Of a DNA stretch of 6,554 nucleotides, positions 1-6,554 are shown one piece after another. The stretch's first letter is position 1. Each line of letters begins with the position of its first letter. This stretch comes from Gammaproteobacteria bacterium (lineage in GTDB: Bacteria; Pseudomonadota; Gammaproteobacteria; Arenicellales; JAOTYS01). Below the pieces are notes generated by a model. That model worked only from the letters and a program-made list of their open reading frames with translations. It was not told the origin of the DNA and searched no databases. Location of the stretch: the NCBI GenBank assembly GCA_029861795.1, contig JAOTYS010000261.1:1-6554 (forward strand). The letters run 5' to 3'. Position numbers and translations under genes: made by a program.

Positions 1-146
1 GCAGATCCTCAGACTGTTAAGGGTCCCATCTAGAGGGGGGCGGGGGCAAACTTTCGTTTCGTGAATATAGTCTTATAGGTGCTTGTCGTGGTCGAGCAAT
101 TTCAAAAGAGCCTTTTCTAAAAATTTTTTTGGAAAAACAAAAGGGG
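1..146. other. Left-edge non-coding stretch
   Basis: No gene can be supported here. One plus-strand frame is open from base 1 to a TAG at 31-33 and could be the last ten codons of an upstream gene, but this is too short to judge. A G-rich run lies at 35-46 (six G, one C, five G). AAAAG at 104-108 can pair with CTTTT at 112-116 and is followed by a run of seven T at 124-130. This resembles a weak terminator for a gene to the left, but the stem has only one G-C pair, so I do not call it. Confidence 0.4.
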
Positions 147-226
147 AATGTCCGCTTCACCCTCGAAAGCAGACGTTCCGGTATTATCGGCGCTTAGGTT
201 TGCTGCTGACCCGAATCAGTCATTTG
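147..226. repeat. Dispersed palindromic repeat, copy 1
   Basis: Bases 147-157 and 167-177 form an 11-position stem (one mismatch, one G-T pair) around a nine-base loop, reading AATGTCCGCTT and AAGCAGACGTT. The stem is followed by a 25-base variable stretch and then CTGCTGACCCGAA at 203-215. The same two blocks, AAAGCAGAC and CTGCTGACCCGAA, recur at 3113 and 3150 with exactly the same 37-base offset between block starts. ATGTCCGCTTC at 148-158 is also the exact reverse complement of 3160-3170. The class resembles the GCGGACAT-type intergenic repeats found in many proteobacterial genomes, whose chance translations appear in databases as short hypothetical proteins beginning MSA (from memory). 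It lies just upstream of the promoter of the first gene. Confidence 0.7.
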
Positions 227-241
227 AGGTGACACCCTCGA

Positions 242-247
242 TATAAT
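242..247 (+). promoter_or_regulatory. -10 box of the accessory cluster promoter
   Basis: A perfect TATAAT ends eight bases before the ATG at 256. No good -35 hexamer is visible at the usual distance (GTCATT at 219-224 is a poor match). A start site seven or eight bases after the box falls at or within two bases of the start codon, so the mRNA would be leaderless or nearly so. This fits the lack of any Shine-Dalgarno sequence before that ATG. Confidence 0.5.
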
Positions 248-255
248 ACGTCTGC

Positions 256-1203
256 ATGGATACGAACAGACAAGCAAGTGGCCCGAAGCGGCAGCACTTT
301 GTTCCTTGCTGCTATTTGAAGTTTTTCGCGCATTCCGGAGATTGGGCCGACGGGCGCAAAACGCGCGTATATTTTACTAATGGCGAAATTTCACGCTGCG
401 TGCCCGTTGAAGACGTTGGTGCCGATGATTTCACTTACTCGAAAGAGTTTCCCGAGTTTGACAATGAATTTCACAACATGGAGCGAGACTATCCTCCAAT
501 CGTCGAAAAAATATTGGCATCGGAAAGCCTCACTAAAAAAGAGTACTTCGGCTTAGTTATTACGATGATAGATTTCAACCTCCGCAACATCGCCTATGAA
601 AATAGGTCCGATCGTGAGCGGAAGGACGTTTACGGCGCGATATCCCGATCGTGCATGGAAGATTTATTCTGGGAGGCACCGGGGAGAGGAACGAGTTTTC
701 AGGAAAACTTGGACTGGCTCGCAGAGAATTGGCGCATACAGGCACTGGAAACGGAAAGCGGTGAGAAGTTCATAACTAGCGACAATCCGTCGACAATCTA
801 CTGCCACGAGCGCTTCGGTCGACCAATATTGATTTACCTGCCAATACACCCAGATAAGGCAGTTATTGCATTCGATAGGCGCTATATACGAGCAGTTTCG
901 CGAAAGGTAAGCGACGATGCGCTGAGCATATTGAATGGATTACAGGTAAATCGTTGTGTGCGCCATGTGTTCTCGGAGCACGATACGTTGGCAGCCGACC
1001 AGCAAAACGTCAATTCACTTAAGGAGCTGTTACAGCGAGAGAAACCGAGTCGATTTGCTACGCAAGAAGGATTGTGGCAACGAGACTATATTAATATCGC
1101 CAGCCCGGCAGTTGCCCGCTTCCAATTTATTCGGCAACGAAAACGAGTTATCTCTGAACTCAGAGAAGCGATCCGATTAGCAATCAGCAGTAGATACCGA
1201 TGA
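256..1203 (+). CDS. DUF4238 family protein
   Basis: This 315-residue protein has the hallmarks of the DUF4238 family. Near the N-terminus is HFVPCCYLKFFA (residues 14-25), matching the family pattern H-[YF]-V-P-x-x-Y-L-x-x-F. The central motif KFITSDNP is at 171-178, followed by the I-Y-L-P-I-H-P-D strand at 193-200 that corresponds to the usual P-L-S-P-D. Length is normal for the family. The biochemical role of DUF4238 is not established; members are scattered in accessory regions and often sit near mobile or defence genes. No signal peptide or membrane segment is visible, so it should be cytoplasmic. ATG 256 is the only plausible start: the upstream frame meets TAA at 244-246 with no other start between. 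There is no Shine-Dalgarno sequence. It is the first gene of a three-gene same-strand cluster, 62 bases ahead of the next. Family assignment is firm; function is unknown. Confidence 0.85.
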   Translation: MDTNRQASGPKRQHFVPCCYLKFFAHSGDWADGRKTRVYFTNGEISRCVPVEDVGADDFTYSKEFPEFDNEFHNMERDYPPIVEKILASESLTKKEYFGLVITMIDFNLRNIAYENRSDRERKDVYGAISRSCMEDLFWEAPGRGTSFQENLDWLAENWRIQALETESGEKFITSDNPSTIYCHERFGRPILIYLPIHPDKAVIAFDRRYIRAVSRKVSDDALSILNGLQVNRCVRHVFSEHDTLAADQQNVNSLKELLQREKPSRFATQEGLWQRDYINIASPAVARFQFIRQRKRVISELREAIRLAISSRYR

Positions 1204-1265
1204 ACGCTTCTGGAGATTGGTTTCTCTGGCACTGCTGCGGCAGACGCACTCGCGATGCTTGACCA

Positions 1266-1982
1266 ATGAAAAACCAGTATTTCGGAGACATCAACGATTA
1301 CAAAAAGTATGGTTTGCTACGCTCGATTATCACGGCCACCAAATTTCGTGTTTTCGTAGCGTGGATGCTGACGCCGGACGATGGTGGCCTAGACGGCCAG
1401 TTTACTGCATACATCGACGAACCAGGAAAGTATAGGGATCATGATCCAATTCTTTTCGATGGGCTGAAAAGATTTCTGACAGAGAGCAAGGAACGCCACG
1501 TCGGGTTGATTGAGACAACTGATCTCGTTCCAGGGGCTGTGTATTTTTCGAAGATAACGCCCGATTCCGCTTCGCAAAGAGCTGAATGGTTTGCTTCCTT
1601 GTTGGACTGTCTGAGCGAAAGCGATCTGGTTTTTCTCGATCCAGACAACGGCTTGGAAGTGAAATCAACGCCTTATGGTCGAAAATCCTCATCAAAGTTT
1701 CTGTACTGGCGCGAAGTCAAAGAGATATGGTCCGTAGGTCAGTCGTTGTTGATTTACCAGCATTTCATCCGAGAGAAGCGCCCGCAGTTCATACAGAGGA
1801 TGTTGGAGGCTTTTCATACGGCGACTCCAGGCTCATTGGTCGAGGCGTTCTCGACGGCCAACGTCGTCTTTCTCATGGCGCTCCAGCCCGGTCATCAGCG
1901 GTTTAATGGCGTTATACTCGATGCTGTGCAAGCGCGTTGGCAGGGACGAATTAGGCATTGGGACTTAGACCAAGGTACCTAG
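1266..1982 (+). CDS. Conserved hypothetical protein with DPDNG motif
   Basis: This 238-residue soluble protein belongs to a conserved bacterial family that I recognise by its start, MKNQYFGDINDYKKYGLLR, but for which I know no demonstrated function. Other recognisable blocks are the W-M-L-T-P-D-D-G segment at 33-40, LVFLDPDNGLEV at 121-132, F-L-Y-W-R-E-V at 145-151 and L-L-I-Y-Q-H-F-I-R at 161-169. A hydrophobic strand ending in D-P-D-N-G, then a Y-W-x-E helix and another strand, resembles motif IV and following elements of Rossmann-fold methyltransferases and of TcmP-like proteins. That resemblance is an inference, and no clear glycine-rich SAM-binding loop is seen. ATG 1266 is fixed by TGA at 1260-1262 in the same frame and by the conserved N-terminus. 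There is no Shine-Dalgarno sequence. It probably shares a transcript with its neighbours. Confidence 0.8.
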   Translation: MKNQYFGDINDYKKYGLLRSIITATKFRVFVAWMLTPDDGGLDGQFTAYIDEPGKYRDHDPILFDGLKRFLTESKERHVGLIETTDLVPGAVYFSKITPDSASQRAEWFASLLDCLSESDLVFLDPDNGLEVKSTPYGRKSSSKFLYWREVKEIWSVGQSLLIYQHFIREKRPQFIQRMLEAFHTATPGSLVEAFSTANVVFLMALQPGHQRFNGVILDAVQARWQGRIRHWDLDQGT

Positions 1983-2056
1983 TGGATATCTGGTAGTTGC
2001 TCGCTTTGCCTCACAAGCAGACGACCTATGAGAATAATTGATTGGATCGAAATAGC

Positions 2057-3088
2057 GTGAGCAGGGGTTATGTCTATATTCTGGAAGTTAGTGATATTGA
2101 TCTGCCGGTCTGCAAAATCGGTCGGACCATCAAGACCCCGCAGGAACGTTGTGCAGCTATTAATCGAAGCTCTACAGGAGACTTTCTTTGGCAGGTCGCC
2201 TACGAATTTTCTGTGAGTGATTGCGATCAGTTCGAACGGATCGTCCACAAGAAGTTAGAGCCGTTCCGTCAAAAGGGCCGTGAGTTCTTCAACGTCTCTG
2301 CAGAAGTCGCCGATAATGCGGTACGGTCCATTCTTGATCGACAGACTGAAATTCAAGAAGTAGAACCGCAGCAATTGGCGGTGCCTGACGAGCACACTCC
2401 GAATCCGCTGAAAGCGAAAAAGCCTCGGGGTATTAAGTTTCGCCAAAAAGACTCCGAGTACGCAGACATTCTTGCGCTTTTTGCAGGGCTTACTGGATGT
2501 AAGGGGCGGCCTTTCGGCCAGCTAAATAAGCCGTACTTCGGAATGAGCGATGGCAATGAAGGCGTACAATGGAATATCGCGATCTACACGGACCCCGAGG
2601 AGATTCAGCTTGGCGTGAACTTGGAGGGCCTCACATACGCTAACTGGCCCATAACGACCCTGATACTTAATGAACTGGCGAATCCGATGTTTTTTGAGGC
2701 CAAAGAGCAGGTGGCGGAACCTGAGCGGATCTATTTGCGAATGACTCGTGACGCGTGGCAAGCAGCATCCAGACCGAGCATTCTCGAGAAATACATTGGA
2801 CTCGGTGATATTTCGATACAAGTCATTAAGCCGCACCAATGGAAATCTATGCTGATCGAAGCTCTGGAATGTTTGTCGGAGGACAAAGGATACCGAGGCA
2901 GAAGCAAACAAAAGGTCACTCTTGCTAAGCAACCCAATCGTGGCGAACAGGTCCGAACTATGGAAGTGTCACCACATCTGACGGTGTGGACGCCAATCGA
3001 GACAGCCGGCGATATGGAGAGCAATTTGAAGATGGGAAGAGATGGATTGACGCCCGTTTACAACTGGATGTCGAGCGCAAGCCAGTAA
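2057..3088 (+). CDS. T5orf172/MUG113-type GIY-YIG-like protein
   Basis: The N-terminal 90 or so residues match the T5orf172/MUG113 branch of the GIY-YIG nuclease superfamily. From the GTG start these include G-Y-V-Y-I-L at 4-9 (the GIY strand), C-K-I-G-R-T at 19-24 (the YIG strand), an arginine in the following helix (R31), a histidine in the FERIVHKKL helix (H64) and R-E-F-F at 75-78, whose glutamate is the expected metal ligand. All catalytic-type residues appear present, so DNA cleavage is plausible but unproven. The remaining 250 residues, with a W-N-I-A-I-Y-T-D strand, are not assignable by eye. TGA at 2039-2041 blocks the frame, leaving TTG 2042 or GTG 2057 as the start. I prefer GTG because it gives MSRGYVYIL, the usual compact N-terminus, with a weak GGA ten bases upstream; starting at TTG would add five residues. 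Last gene of the cluster, 74 bases after the previous stop. Confidence 0.8.
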   Translation: MSRGYVYILEVSDIDLPVCKIGRTIKTPQERCAAINRSSTGDFLWQVAYEFSVSDCDQFERIVHKKLEPFRQKGREFFNVSAEVADNAVRSILDRQTEIQEVEPQQLAVPDEHTPNPLKAKKPRGIKFRQKDSEYADILALFAGLTGCKGRPFGQLNKPYFGMSDGNEGVQWNIAIYTDPEEIQLGVNLEGLTYANWPITTLILNELANPMFFEAKEQVAEPERIYLRMTRDAWQAASRPSILEKYIGLGDISIQVIKPHQWKSMLIEALECLSEDKGYRGRSKQKVTLAKQPNRGEQVRTMEVSPHLTVWTPIETAGDMESNLKMGRDGLTPVYNWMSSASQ

Positions 3089-3111
3089 AGATGAGCGTCG
3101 GCTAACCGCTC

Positions 3112-3170
3112 CAAAGCAGACATTGGGCTAGACTAGCTGTGAAAGGCCGCTGCTGACCCGAAGCGGACAT
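3112..3170. repeat. Dispersed palindromic repeat, copy 2
   Basis: This is the partner of the repeat at 147-226. AAAGCAGAC at 3113-3121 and CTGCTGACCCGAA at 3150-3162 match copy 1 base for base at the same 37-base offset. The end, AAGCGGACAT (3161-3170), is the inverse of the left stem arm of copy 1. The 25-base interior is unrelated between copies but contains its own palindrome, GCTAG-A-CTAGC (3127-3137). It starts 23 bases after the third gene's stop, so the two copies closely bracket the accessory cluster. As a structured RNA it might also end or protect the transcript, but there is no T-run. Confidence 0.7.
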
Positions 3171-3304
3171 AGGGCCATTGGCCTCACACCGATGAAATTC
3201 TTTGCGCAGCGATTCGCTGAACATCTCACCCAGCGTCTTCGATATGCCGGTTAAGCAGTTAATCCCTGTTCTGCGACAGTGTCCCCATAGCGATAATCGG
3301 CTTA
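3171..3304. other. Intergenic stretch without a supported gene
   Basis: A 20-codon plus-strand frame (3192-3254) has no ribosome binding site and no recognisable product, and I do not call it. GGGCC at 3172-3176 and GGCCT at 3180-3184 make a short hairpin with a three-base loop and no T-run. Nothing else is recognised before the promoter elements that follow. Confidence 0.5.
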
Positions 3305-3323
3305 ATACGTAGATATACGTATA
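3305..3323. promoter_or_regulatory. Tandem TACGTA operator-like site
   Basis: ATACGTA occurs at 3305-3311 and again at 3315-3321, exactly ten bases apart, so both palindromic TACGTA cores face the same side of the helix. The second is embedded in a perfect ten-base palindrome, TATACGTATA (3314-3323). The pair covers the place where a -35 hexamer should be for the TATAAT at 3332, and no consensus -35 is present there. This arrangement fits a dimeric regulator bound at the -35 region, most simply an activator. The regulator is unknown and the site is inferred from symmetry only. Confidence 0.4.
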
Positions 3324-3331
3324 AACGGGTC

Positions 3332-3337
3332 TATAAT
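3332..3337 (+). promoter_or_regulatory. -10 box of the riboswitch transcript
   Basis: A perfect TATAAT is followed about seven bases later by the first bases of the aptamer, so transcription should begin near 3343-3345. The best -35 candidates (around 3309-3315) are poor and overlap the tandem TACGTA site, suggesting the promoter needs an activator. Confidence 0.65.
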
Positions 3338-3340
3338 GTA

Positions 3341-3457
3341 AGTAGCGACAAAGGCAAATCCAGCCAAAGCTGGTGACGCAAAGCCACGGGTCCTCGCTTC
3401 CTCCGAGAAGCCATGGATGACTCCCCGAAGGACCCCAAGATCGCCGGGCTACTGATC
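3341..3457 (+). promoter_or_regulatory. Cyclic di-GMP-I (GEMM-I) riboswitch
   Basis: The conserved GEMM-I core is clear: AAAGGCAAA (3350-3358), a hairpin CCAGC-CAAA-GCTGG (3360-3373), GACGCAAAGCCACGGG (3375-3390), and GATCGCCGGGCTAC (3439-3452). Mapped on the Vibrio cholerae Vc2 aptamer from memory, the ligand-contacting bases are G20 = G3354, the intercalating A47 = A3381 and C92 = C3452. A guanine at position 20 favours cyclic di-GMP over cGAMP. Two departures are seen: the hairpin loop is CAAA rather than the usual GNRA tetraloop, and helix P3 carries an extra arm of about 46 bases (3393-3438). Within it GGGTCCT (3388-3394) can pair perfectly with AGGACCC (3429-3435), competing with the normal P3 pairing. 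The aptamer ends about 40 bases before the start codon with no terminator between, so control of translation is more likely than attenuation. Confidence 0.88.
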
Positions 3458-3485
3458 TAACGAATCTCAGCGCGACGAATAATTA

Positions 3486-3492
3486 CGGGAGA
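3486..3492 (+). promoter_or_regulatory. Ribosome binding site of the riboswitch-controlled gene
   Basis: CGGGAGA lies six bases before the ATG at 3498 and is the best Shine-Dalgarno sequence in the window. CTCCC at 3421-3425, in the extra arm of riboswitch helix P3, can pair with GGGAG (3487-3491), giving a possible way for aptamer folding to expose or hide it. Confidence 0.7.
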
Positions 3493-3497
3493 AAACG

Positions 3498-6400
3498 ATG
3501 CTAAATCATAAAATTACGGCATCGGTGGTTATGCTGGGGATGGCGATTCTGCTTAGTCCGGCAGCCTATGCTGCGAAGCCCGGTAAAATCAAACCCGATA
3601 AAATTGATGTTTGCCATGTTCCAGAGTCAACGCCGGACAATCTGCACATTATTAATATCAGCACCAACGGTAATGCACTTAATGCTCATCTATCCCACGG
3701 TGATTGGGAAGCGACCGCTGAATTGTGTGATGCTATTCCCGATAATGATTGCGATGGTGAACCGGACCCTGTAGCAGATGACGCTGATTGTGTTGCCATA
3801 AATGGCGGTCCAGGCTGGACTTGTCAAATTGGTATCTGTAACTCACCACCGACCGATATTGCACTTGATAGTGCTGATATAGATGAAAACCTGGCGTCCG
3901 GTACACCAGTCGGAATGCTCAGTAGCACCGACCCAGATTCACCCGGACCTTTTACCTATACTTTTGTCTCCGGCGACGGCGATAGTGACAACGCATCATT
4001 TAGCATTTCTGGCTCACACTTACTAAGTTCAGCGACCTTTGATTTTGAATCAAAACATTCTTATAGCATTCGCCTAATGACGGATGCAGGTGATGGGGGT
4101 ACTTATCAGGAAGCCATCACCATTTCAGTGAATGATATTAATGAAGCGCCTACAGCTATTGTCCTCGAAAACGATAGTATTCATGAAAATCAAGCTACTG
4201 GCTCTTTGATTAGCTACTTCACAACAACCGACGTAGATGCGGGCGATTCTCATGTCTACACTCTGGTGGGAGGTCCTGGTGATACCGATAACGCTTCGTT
4301 TGACATCGTTGATGACCAACTTGTTAGTGCTGAGAGTTTTGACTTTGAAACTCGAGATAGCTATAGCATGCGTGTACAGTCAGAAGACAGTGGTGGCTTA
4401 ACAATCACACAAAGTTATTCAATCACTATCATTGATGTGAACGATCCGCCAACGGCGATTACTCTAAACAATTCCGATGTCGATGAAGAACAGGCAGTGG
4501 GTACAGTAGTGGGTACCTTCACCTCAACCGATGTTGATTCTTCAATCTTTAGTTACAGCCTGGTGGCGGGCTTTGGTAATGCTGATAATGCATCGTTCTC
4601 AATAGTAGACGATCAACTGCAAAGTGCGATAATCTTTGATTACGACGTGCAAAACAGTTTCAATATTCGAGTCCAGACCGATGATGGTGACGGTGGTACT
4701 TTTCAGGATACTTTTACCATCACAATTAACAGTATTTATGGAGACGATTACTTCCCTAACGGTGTCGCTGCAGGAGACGTCGATCAGTCGTCGGTCGTCC
4801 TGTGGGCGCGAGGCGCGTCTCCAGGAACAATAACATTTGAGTACGGCCGGGATCCCGATTTCTCCGACCCCCCTGACGGCGTCCAGCACAAAGAGGTTGT
4901 CGATCCAAAACTCCCCGTCAAAGCCGACATTTCGGGATTGCTCGCGGGAACGCAGTACTATTACCGTGCCTGCCGCGGCGGCACGTGTCAGCTTTCAATG
5001 CTGCCCGGTTTCGAAGCACGTGGCAGTTTTCGCACCCCCTTTGCATTCAAAGACGGTAAAAAAGGGCTGCGATTTGGTGCGTCTTCATGCTGGCGTGGCG
5101 ACCTAAGACCTTTTGTGTCCATCAGGAATGTTCCCGACCGAGACCTCGATTTCTTCGTTGCCCTGGGTGACACCGTCTATGCGGATAGTCCTGCAACTTG
5201 GGATGGTACCGATGACGATGATCCCTCCGGAAACCGAGCTATAAATCTTCAGGAATTTCGACATAAGAACGCACTCAACTACGAGGGGCCACCAGAAGAA
5301 AACTATTTCGCCCTCGCCCGTGCCTCGACAGCCTCTTTCGTCACCATCGACGATCACGAGATCATCAATAATTTTGCGGGCGGTGCGCACCCCACAAGCC
5401 AGGTAGATACCGCCGAATGCAGTAAGGAACAGTTGGGTATAGGGCCTTTTAATGTATGTTTTTGTGATAAAACCAAAGATCCCCCGGATGCAAACTGCAT
5501 TAAGCAATTCATCAATGAGACTGACTTGTACGAGGACGGGTTGCAAGCGTGGTCCGAGTACAATCCTGTTCGCGAAGAACATTACGGTGTTACCAGAGAT
5601 TTTCGTACCGAATATAAAAGAAAACTCTATCGTTACCAGACCTTCGGCCAGGATGCAGCGCTATTTATGCTCGACGCGCGTTCTTTTCGCGACGAGGCGA
5701 AGGGAGGGGCCGCGGCGTACGATGCAGACCGAACTATGCTGGGGGCGGCACAACTGAGCGAGTTGCTGGAGGATCTGAGTGCGGCTGACCAGCTAGGGGT
5801 CACTTGGAAATTAGTATTCTTGCCTGAGCCGATACAGCGCATGGGTATTATTGAGTCATCCGATAGATTCGAGGGCTACCAAGCAGAGCGAAGCAAAATT
5901 CTGAGCCACATAGAAAACAACTGTATAGATAATGTGGTCTTCATCTCCGGTGACATTCACGGAACGCTGGTTAATAACCTAGATTACAAAGACCCCCTTC
6001 CTGACATAGATCGCTATTCACGCACCTGGGATATTAGCACTGGTCCGGCTGCCTACCACCACCCCCTTGGAATGACATTGCAAAAGTTGCCCGGCCAAAA
6101 GGAGGAATACGACCATTTAGATCGGGATGCTCAAAACGAAAAAGTGAAGGAAACTTTGAATGCCCAATTATTCGCAATTGGCGCGCCTCTGCTCGGATTA
6201 GGCCAAGAACTCACCTACCCGACCCATAAGGACAAATACAATCAAGACATCCCGGCAGAAAAAATATCCGGGAGATGGGATTTGACCAACATCTTTGGGT
6301 GGACCGAGTTTGAAATCGATGCCGAAACGCAGATTCTTATAGTCACCACCTATGGAATACCCTTTTACGACCCAGTGGAGGGATACGGCTTAGACTTTGA

Positions 6401-6554
6401 TGATTATAAGAGCGCAGAGCCTGAGGTTAGGGGTAAGTTTACCGTTCGGCCTCACGTTCGAAAGGAGGAGGGTCAATTCTGCGGCAAAGATGTCGATTGC
6501 GATTCGTGTAATTGTGCTCTATTAAGCGAAGGCGGCATTTTGCAATGCGTCGCG
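3498..6554 (+). CDS. Secreted cadherin-repeat/PhoD-type phosphatase fusion (partial)
   Basis: The frame is open for 1019 codons and runs off the right edge; start ATG 3498 follows a good ribosome binding site. Residues 1-25 are a Sec-type signal peptide (cleavage near A-Y-A, 23-25). Residues 37-78 form a Cys/His module (CHVP at 39-42, HLSHGD at 64-69). Residues 82-114 are acidic and Cys-containing (DNDCDG at 82-87). Three cadherin-like repeats fill about 117-414, with linkers NDINEAP and NDPP. A PhoD N-terminal beta domain starts at F-P-N-G-V-A-A-G-D (419-427), with V-L-W-A-R at 434-438. The phosphatase core carries A-S-S-C (528-531), L-G-D (556-558), I-D-D-H-E (617-621) with N-N (624-625), L-D-A-R-S-F-R and S-G-D-I-H (817-821), the metal-site motifs of this Fe/Ca enzyme family. 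It probably cleaves phosphodiesters or monoesters outside the cytoplasm while the cadherin repeats bind calcium or partners. A Cys-rich tail (C995, C1001, C1004, C1006, C1017) continues past the window. Confidence 0.9.
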   Translation, partial: MLNHKITASVVMLGMAILLSPAAYAAKPGKIKPDKIDVCHVPESTPDNLHIINISTNGNALNAHLSHGDWEATAELCDAIPDNDCDGEPDPVADDADCVAINGGPGWTCQIGICNSPPTDIALDSADIDENLASGTPVGMLSSTDPDSPGPFTYTFVSGDGDSDNASFSISGSHLLSSATFDFESKHSYSIRLMTDAGDGGTYQEAITISVNDINEAPTAIVLENDSIHENQATGSLISYFTTTDVDAGDSHVYTLVGGPGDTDNASFDIVDDQLVSAESFDFETRDSYSMRVQSEDSGGLTITQSYSITIIDVNDPPTAITLNNSDVDEEQAVGTVVGTFTSTDVDSSIFSYSLVAGFGNADNASFSIVDDQLQSAIIFDYDVQNSFNIRVQTDDGDGGTFQDTFTITINSIYGDDYFPNGVAAGDVDQSSVVLWARGASPGTITFEYGRDPDFSDPPDGVQHKEVVDPKLPVKADISGLLAGTQYYYRACRGGTCQLSMLPGFEARGSFRTPFAFKDGKKGLRFGASSCWRGDLRPFVSIRNVPDRDLDFFVALGDTVYADSPATWDGTDDDDPSGNRAINLQEFRHKNALNYEGPPEENYFALARASTASFVTIDDHEIINNFAGGAHPTSQVDTAECSKEQLGIGPFNVCFCDKTKDPPDANCIKQFINETDLYEDGLQAWSEYNPVREEHYGVTRDFRTEYKRKLYRYQTFGQDAALFMLDARSFRDEAKGGAAAYDADRTMLGAAQLSELLEDLSAADQLGVTWKLVFLPEPIQRMGIIESSDRFEGYQAERSKILSHIENNCIDNVVFISGDIHGTLVNNLDYKDPLPDIDRYSRTWDISTGPAAYHHPLGMTLQKLPGQKEEYDHLDRDAQNEKVKETLNAQLFAIGAPLLGLGQELTYPTHKDKYNQDIPAEKISGRWDLTNIFGWTEFEIDAETQILIVTTYGIPFYDPVEGYGLDFDDYKSAEPEVRGKFTVRPHVRKEEGQFCGKDVDCDSCNCALLSEGGILQCVA
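3846..4739 (+). repeat. Three tandem cadherin-like repeats within the fusion gene
   Basis: Units at about 3846-4145, 4146-4445 and 4446-4739 encode repeats of about 100 residues. Each has an N/P-P-T-x-I start, an acidic E-N or E-E turn, S/T-T-D-x-D, D-N-A-S-F, a F-D-[FY]-[ED] block and a S-[YF]-[SN]-[IM]-R strand. Units one and two end with N-D-[IV]-N-[ED]-x-P, the calcium-binding linker of cadherins; unit three ends in N-S-I-Y-G-D-D and leads directly into the phosphatase part. The similarity is clear in protein but not obvious in DNA, so the units are old duplications. Confidence 0.8.

Follow-up and report, generated by a model that had tools for sequence, protein, structure and literature searches.

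The class I riboswitch for cyclic di-guanosine monophosphate (c-di-GMP), known as c-di-GMP-I or GEMM-I, is a well-studied RNA fold in which a GNRA tetraloop is docked on a receptor. Two types are set apart in the passages compared from PMC11218506: type I, with a GNRA loop and its receptor, and type II, with a GYRA loop and no receptor. In Vc2, according to a passage of PMC3764141, the tetraloop adenines dock on the P3 pairs C59-G79 and U60-A78, and an excerpt of PMC4744006 describes Vc1 as a positive regulator of downstream expression. We analysed a stretch of gammaproteobacterial DNA of 6,554 nucleotides (nt) (contig JAOTYS010000261.1, positions 1 to 6,554; hereafter the window), in which a GEMM-I aptamer precedes a gene that joins cadherin-like repeats to a PhoD-type phosphatase. 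Judged by its loop sequence, the window RNA fits neither type I nor type II. Its P2 hairpin ends in a CAAA loop and its P3 arm carries a conserved extension, and this combination, absent from an earlier reading made from the sequence alone (the sequence-only reading), is the more unusual part of the locus. We read the extended-P3 form as a structural variant within GEMM-I. Taken as a whole, the locus is probably best explained as a promoter-proximal c-di-GMP-I riboswitch of a clade-restricted, extended variant that stands at the start of the transcript for an exported cadherin-PhoD phosphatase.

The aptamer and its ligand pocket

A covariance search with Rfam RF01051 matched positions 3343-3456 (forward strand, as for all features below) at 56.4 bits, above the gathering score of 35. 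A second model, R1, built from 23 aptamer copies with the window among them, scored the same aptamer at 57.3 bits. The sequence-only reading had placed a GEMM-I aptamer with all three key ligand bases directly before the gene, and this was borne out: in the RF01051 alignment the equivalents of Vc2 G20, A47 and C92 are G3353, A3380 and C3452. The Vc2 ligand bases were drawn from passages of PMC11218506 and PMC4744006, and their mapping onto the window is our own alignment-based assignment. By its score and its ligand bases the window RNA is a GEMM-I aptamer, and it is predicted to bind c-di-GMP. C3377 and G3443 are also present and may correspond to the interhelical P2-P3 pair Vc1 C36/G90, a tentative assignment that presumes Vc2 numbering for the P3 partner.

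The P2 hairpin occupies 3359-3374, with the non-GNRA tetraloop CAAA at 3365-3368 and a U.U as its outermost pair in the window. By alignment P3 spans 3382-3450, its base helix formed by 3382-3392 with 3439-3450. Beyond this helix lies the extension of about 46 nt (3393-3438), which appears as a long insertion in the RF01051 alignment.

Recurrence and conservation of the variant

An 18-base stretch taken from the extension's 5' half served as search pattern. With at most one mismatch it was present in 70 of the 296 genomes of the order to which genome G187 belongs, in some by chance inside genes, while the reversed 18-mer gave near zero in the same order. Of the 369 class genomes sampled, two (G187 and G031) carried the exact 18-mer. 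The contexts examined came from 100 fetched regions, a part of all such places, and from loci of earlier class and order scans. By a strict rule 103 of the 135 distinct contexts (window included) were aptamer-like, several of the 32 rejected being near-misses of that rule. These 103 come from 44 genomes plus the window, with up to 11 per genome and nearly all in one gammaproteobacterial order; 98 could be parsed fully.

RF01051 was found in 67 of the 369 class-sample genomes. G187 held 11 matches, 7 of them with a long P3, and those 7 closely carry the insertion seen in the window; G031 had one copy with a window-like insertion. The insertion was missing in six copies from five other class genomes (by reading; P3 length varied) and in the 22 GEMM-I copies that four Methylococcales genomes contain. 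At positions 12-37 the Methylococcales copies (L081-L102) have C-G in place of G-C, and the genes that follow them mostly appear, by eye, to encode exported proteins. In L179 of genome G593 the extension is identical to that of the window from GGGTCC through CCCCAAGA. Forty genomes of G187's order, all picked for holding matches to the 18-mer pattern, contained 336 RF01051 matches, with a maximum of 21 in one. When read, none of the eight viral-contig stretches with the 18-mer was an aptamer; phage records searched with the aptamer gave no match, and plasmids two weak partial ones. Because the named nearest relatives of the G187 SecA were Woeseiaceae, next to names given only as Gammaproteobacteria or Proteobacteria (among the 120 listed of 8000), we call the host group of the variant Woeseiaceae-like.

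The conservation of the 18-mer itself proves nothing, since it was the selection pattern. In the unselected 3' half of the extension the mean pairwise identity was 0.77 for flavour A (n = 43) and 0.765 for flavour C (n = 29). The P2 hairpin reached 0.63, and the flanks no more than 0.28 and 0.26. GAAGGACCC was found within one mismatch in 89 of the 98 parsed copies. In an alignment of 37 sequences, chosen for equal length, five of the six P2 pairs showed changes on both sides, and the structure fitted better than every slid version. With flanks at chance level, a compensated P2 and a 3' half that is about 77% identical, the copies appear to be old and the extension to be under constraint.

Tetraloop type and the P3 extension

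P2 loops were parsed with strict regular expressions in five locus sets, with duplicates removed and the window left uncounted. Of the 99 parsed copies with an ordinary P3, 96 had a GNRA loop: 24/24 among the best-scoring loci of the order (29 loci given), 20/20 among the best-scoring loci of the class sample (30 loci), 17/18 in Methylococcales (22 loci), 4/5 among otherwise fetched loci (142 loci) and 31/32 among the lower-ranked of the listed order matches (40 loci, 34 parsed). Nine of the 40 loci in this last set were taken for long P3, and the weakest matches lie below the listed range. Among extended copies only 24 of 89 had a GNRA loop, the others being CAAA (45), AAAA (11) and UAAA (9). 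A Fisher test of GNRA by P3 type gave P = 3.4e-26, a value that is not a true probability because the copies are related.

The 89 extended copies include two short forms, L354 and L358, both with a CAAA loop and both met among copies that were not chosen for long P3. Their P3 extension has the short form GGGTCCTCGTCTCCTCTTTCCGGACCC, possibly a minimal receptor.

The P2 loop adenines are conserved in 98, 96 and 96 of the 98 parsed variant copies, and the pair equivalent to Vc2 C59-G79, the A-minor site, is C-G in 96 of 98. At the usual receptor positions the C50-G97 pair is kept, the next layer consists of C51 and A96 (U-A in Vc2), and what follows is extension. Beyond the C/A layer the variant P3 opens to CUCGnn facing CCC(C)AA, which would most likely form a receptor-like internal loop of a new kind, with the helix H2 described below as its cap. 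From these comparisons we read the extension as a replacement of the usual tetraloop receptor in this GEMM-I variant.

Two other readings of the extension bear on the same data. The window could hold an ordinary GEMM-I in which the long P3 loop is neutral padding from a recent duplication and the CAAA loop folds like a GNRA loop and docks as usual. GNRA-like docking of a CAAA loop in a Mg2+ riboswitch is described in a passage of PMC3764141, and four loci of the same order (L329-L332) have long P3 arms without the extension beside GAAA loops. Padding or recent copying would not, however, give chance-level flanks, a compensated P2 and a largely identical 3' half together, and the loop type tracks the extension, so we consider this reading unlikely. 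Alternatively, the extension could bind a protein or a small RNA and thereby let the switch integrate a further input besides c-di-GMP. Being near-invariant within two flavours, the sequence would suit a bound motif, but an internal contact accounts better for the association with the loop change, and no partner came up, none having been sought; we regard a second input as doubtful.

Folding of the extension

Within the extension a helix H2 may form between 3399-3405 and 3426-3432 (UCCUCCG with CGAAGGA). It competes with a second candidate helix, HA, which would pair 3388-3394 with 3429-3435 (GGGUCCU with AGGACCC); the two states use the same bases, and HA is mutually exclusive with P3 and H2. 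In the 37-sequence alignment the P3 base helix was paired in 97.0% of cells and showed changes on both sides in 2 of 10 pairs. For the window RNA the predicted energies were nearly equal, at -25.8 kcal/mol for P2 with P3 and H2 and -26.2 kcal/mol for P2 with HA and a hairpin. A ligand-driven choice between the HA fold and the P3 plus H2 fold is a plausible hypothesis.

Promoter, leader and following genes

A promoter-like site at 3310-3337 (TAGATA, a spacer of 16 nt and TATAAT at 3332-3337) ends 5 nt before the aptamer. It matches 10 of 12 consensus positions and is weak alone, because shuffled versions of the region contain a mean of 0.7 such sites. Across the extended variant set, 20 of 97 copies had a -10-like box at 7-22 nt upstream of the aptamer, whereas three control windows gave 2, 3 and 2 of 97. 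A Shine-Dalgarno (SD) sequence, GGGAG at 3487-3491, precedes the ATG at 3498, which begins 41 nt past the aptamer end. No intrinsic-terminator-like site was among those predicted between aptamer and start, so control of translation or of mRNA stability would be more likely than termination.

Three genes upstream on the same strand (256-3088) look accessory and unconnected with the riboswitch. They are a DUF4238 protein gene (256-1203, Pfam), a gene for a 238-residue protein without a Pfam match (1266-1982) and one for a T5orf172/GIY-YIG-type protein (2042-3088, Pfam).

The next start after the variant aptamer lies at a median distance of 48 nt, although the selection rule also took some doubtful open reading frames (ORFs). 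By a simple hydrophobicity rule 67 of the 86 next genes within 110 nt appeared to encode exported proteins, 14 of them with a lipobox-like motif. A Pfam scan of 81 of these 86 found beta-helix, PKD, Calx-beta, cadherin-like and GDSL domains recurring in small numbers, and PhoD in the window gene only. The genes after the variant thus look mostly exported, with PhoD one of them. A 77-residue protein of one kind, with the pattern M.TN.AD....HIDETLP, is encoded after the variant in three genomes (L205, L211 and L213). In L137, L149 and L152 (genomes G187, G388 and G295) GEMM-I copies without the extension stand before genes for similar proteins of about 310-340 residues that have a hydrophobic stretch at the N-terminus; in L137 and L149 a SecA-like ORF comes next after this gene.

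The leaders of these genes bear on another role for the extension, in which its UUCCUCC would act as an anti-SD, base-pairing to the SD on the same mRNA, and c-di-GMP would control translation by hiding or freeing it in H2. The SDs of the next genes are strong, with GGAG in 61 of 86, and the leaders of these genes pair with the loop piece at -9.62 kcal/mol, against -8.16 kcal/mol for control starts (P = 0.002). The same leaders gain more with the 16S anti-SD (-8.11 against -5.93 kcal/mol in controls), and their preference for the loop over the 16S anti-SD is smaller, at -1.51 compared with -2.23 in controls that include spurious ORFs. UUCCUCC is conserved but lies within the selected 18-mer, and pairing of the SD with the 18-mer region was 0.117, compared with 0.129 after shuffling (73 loci; pseudoknots outside the model). 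The stronger leader pairing does not exceed what generic SD strength would give, and the shuffled control gives values that are no lower; an anti-SD role is unsupported and seems to us very unlikely.

The exported cadherin-PhoD protein

The gene begins at 3498 and its reading frame runs for 1019 residues to 6554, where the contig ends and the 3' end is lost. That the frame is unterminated, and that the gene fuses cadherin repeats with a PhoD phosphatase in an exported product, had been proposed in the sequence-only reading, and both points were confirmed. A Sec-type signal peptide of 25 residues ending in AYA was recognised by eye (3498-3572). Three cadherin-like repeats follow at residues 112-412 (3831-4733), with DINEAP and DVNDPP linkers; Pfam PF00028 (cadherin; 52.2 bits, cut-off 28.8) matched two stretches, and the division into three repeats was made by eye. 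A PhoD_N domain (PF16655) covers residues 422-494 (4761-4979) and the PhoD catalytic domain (PF09423, 151.5 bits, cut-off 27) residues 530-853 (5085-6056). The catalytic domain corresponds by sequence to PDB entries 9uya and 2yeq, and its predicted structure matches 2yeq. The PhoD metal ligands are present, C531, N625 and D819 being the equivalents of Cys-180, Asn-272 and Asp-436. A Tat export signal has been described for PhoD and is not part of the family-defining Pfam domain; the N-terminus of the window protein, MLNHKITASVVMLGMAILLSPAAYA, has no twin arginine (by eye). The equivalog model NF058638 (NCBIfam AlkPhosPhoDBac) gave 83 bits, below its curated cut-off of 1000. The protein may have phosphatase or phosphodiesterase activity and might mediate calcium-dependent adhesion; phosphate or nucleic-acid scavenging in a biofilm, as suggested in the sequence-only reading, is a conceivable use.

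Of 271 protein relatives found, 120 were listed, and many match the cadherin part alone. Two metagenome proteins have the full architecture in common with the window protein over 100% of the query, P0003 at 64% and P0005 at 61% identity. Both run on into Cys-rich repeats that are lost from the window at its cut end; alignment with these and others places the start of the Cys-rich region at 6471-6554. Other relatives share about 50% identity in the PhoD part and have different N-termini. The fusion is therefore real but modular. The sequence-only reading had suggested that the architecture may be undescribed, and no paper on a cadherin-PhoD fusion was found among the listed titles and abstract starts, which were a part of the matches. 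P0003 and P0005 show that the fusion is not a one-off. Four close PhoD relatives (P0029, P0031, P0041 and P0057) have an apparent lipoprotein signal start and lack the cadherin stalk (by eye); the mode of attachment to the cell may therefore vary across the PhoD subfamily.

A model for the locus and its weighing

We propose that the riboswitch would begin the mRNA of the exported cadherin-PhoD gene, close to the promoter. The variant would keep the GEMM-I pocket, P2 and the P3 base, with the GNRA loop and the usual receptor swapped for NAAA and the extension, which would most likely serve as a new receptor region with H2 as its cap. Binding of c-di-GMP could then stabilise P3 and H2 over the competing HA, and the change of fold could alter translation or stability of the short leader. 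More protein would be expected at high c-di-GMP, a sign taken from the analogy with Vc1/gbpA. We are evenly divided on the broader proposition that this is a third structural type of GEMM-I, amplified in Woeseiaceae-like Gammaproteobacteria, in which the extension is the receptor for NAAA, HA and H2 put part of the switch inside the aptamer, and exported proteins including cadherin-PhoD are under c-di-GMP.

Several observations weigh against this model. The GNRA comparison draws on related, mostly high-scoring copies, some of which the strict regular expressions left unparsed, and a GAAA loop still stands in 24 of the 89 extended copies. H2 and HA are near-invariant, with zero changes on both sides of their pairs, and both are therefore putative helices. 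When other pairs were left free, the HA fold came out ahead of the P3 fold by about 5 kcal/mol in the absence of ligand. The SD of the window is mostly unpaired in the predicted fold ensemble, and no expression platform is visible. Around PhoD genes the switch did not recur. With the window protein alone as query, reference genomes gave no relatives; an alignment-based scan gave 355, of which the best 80, at no more than 44% identity, were kept. GEMM-I preceded PhoD in 0 of these 80 nearest loci (model R1, full match at E <= 1), with L050 (16.3 bits, E 0.98) dropped for a match clipped at the contig end and 6 of the 80 loci holding less than 1.5 kb before the match. Conversely, the Pfam scan of genes after the variant found no PhoD in the 80 other than the window gene. 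The link between PhoD and the riboswitch accordingly comes from this window alone. At E <= 1e-60 the PhoD subfamily (alignment A1) was found in 1 of 369 class genomes, G002 itself, and at E <= 1e-40 in none of 296 order genomes, in a search without an internal positive control. A tblastn search of plasmids with the window protein matched 121 records, none covering 80% of the protein.

Woeseiaceae-like bacteria are abundant in marine sediment. If the model is right, they place many exported proteins under c-di-GMP via RNA, and the cadherin-PhoD gene ties surface life to the cleavage of phosphate esters. A variant mostly without GNRA that keeps its pocket bases across many species and genes also provides a test of tertiary-contact swapping under retained ligand control.

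Comparison with known systems

No description of this P3 extension was found in the literature, covered mostly as titles and abstract starts with the original GEMM paper outside the scope, or in the passages compared from PMC11218506, PMC4744006, PMC3764141 and PMC4223295. At the level of titles and abstract starts no paper paired GEMM-I with PhoD or GEMM with cadherin, and none joined 'Woeseia' with 'riboswitch' or 'Woeseiales' with 'c-di-GMP'.

With the type I riboswitches Vc1, Vc2 and Bc1 the window RNA shares the ligand bases, P2, the P3 base and a place before an exported-protein gene (gbpA in the case of Vc1). It differs from them in its CAAA loop, in the P3 extension of about 46 nt and in that the usual receptor is not recognised. 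This last feature it has in common with type II, from which it is set apart by an NAAA (CAAA) loop instead of GYRA and by the conserved extension. The window protein resembles Bacillus subtilis PhoD (2yeq) in its PhoD_N and PhoD domains, the Cys-type iron ligand, the equivalents of Asn-272 and Asp-436 and the modelled fold. Unlike that enzyme it has a Sec-type rather than a Tat signal and N-terminal cadherin repeats, and its relatives bear C-terminal Cys-rich repeats. P0003 and P0005 match the whole architecture present in the window and differ in that their Cys-rich C-terminal region is complete.

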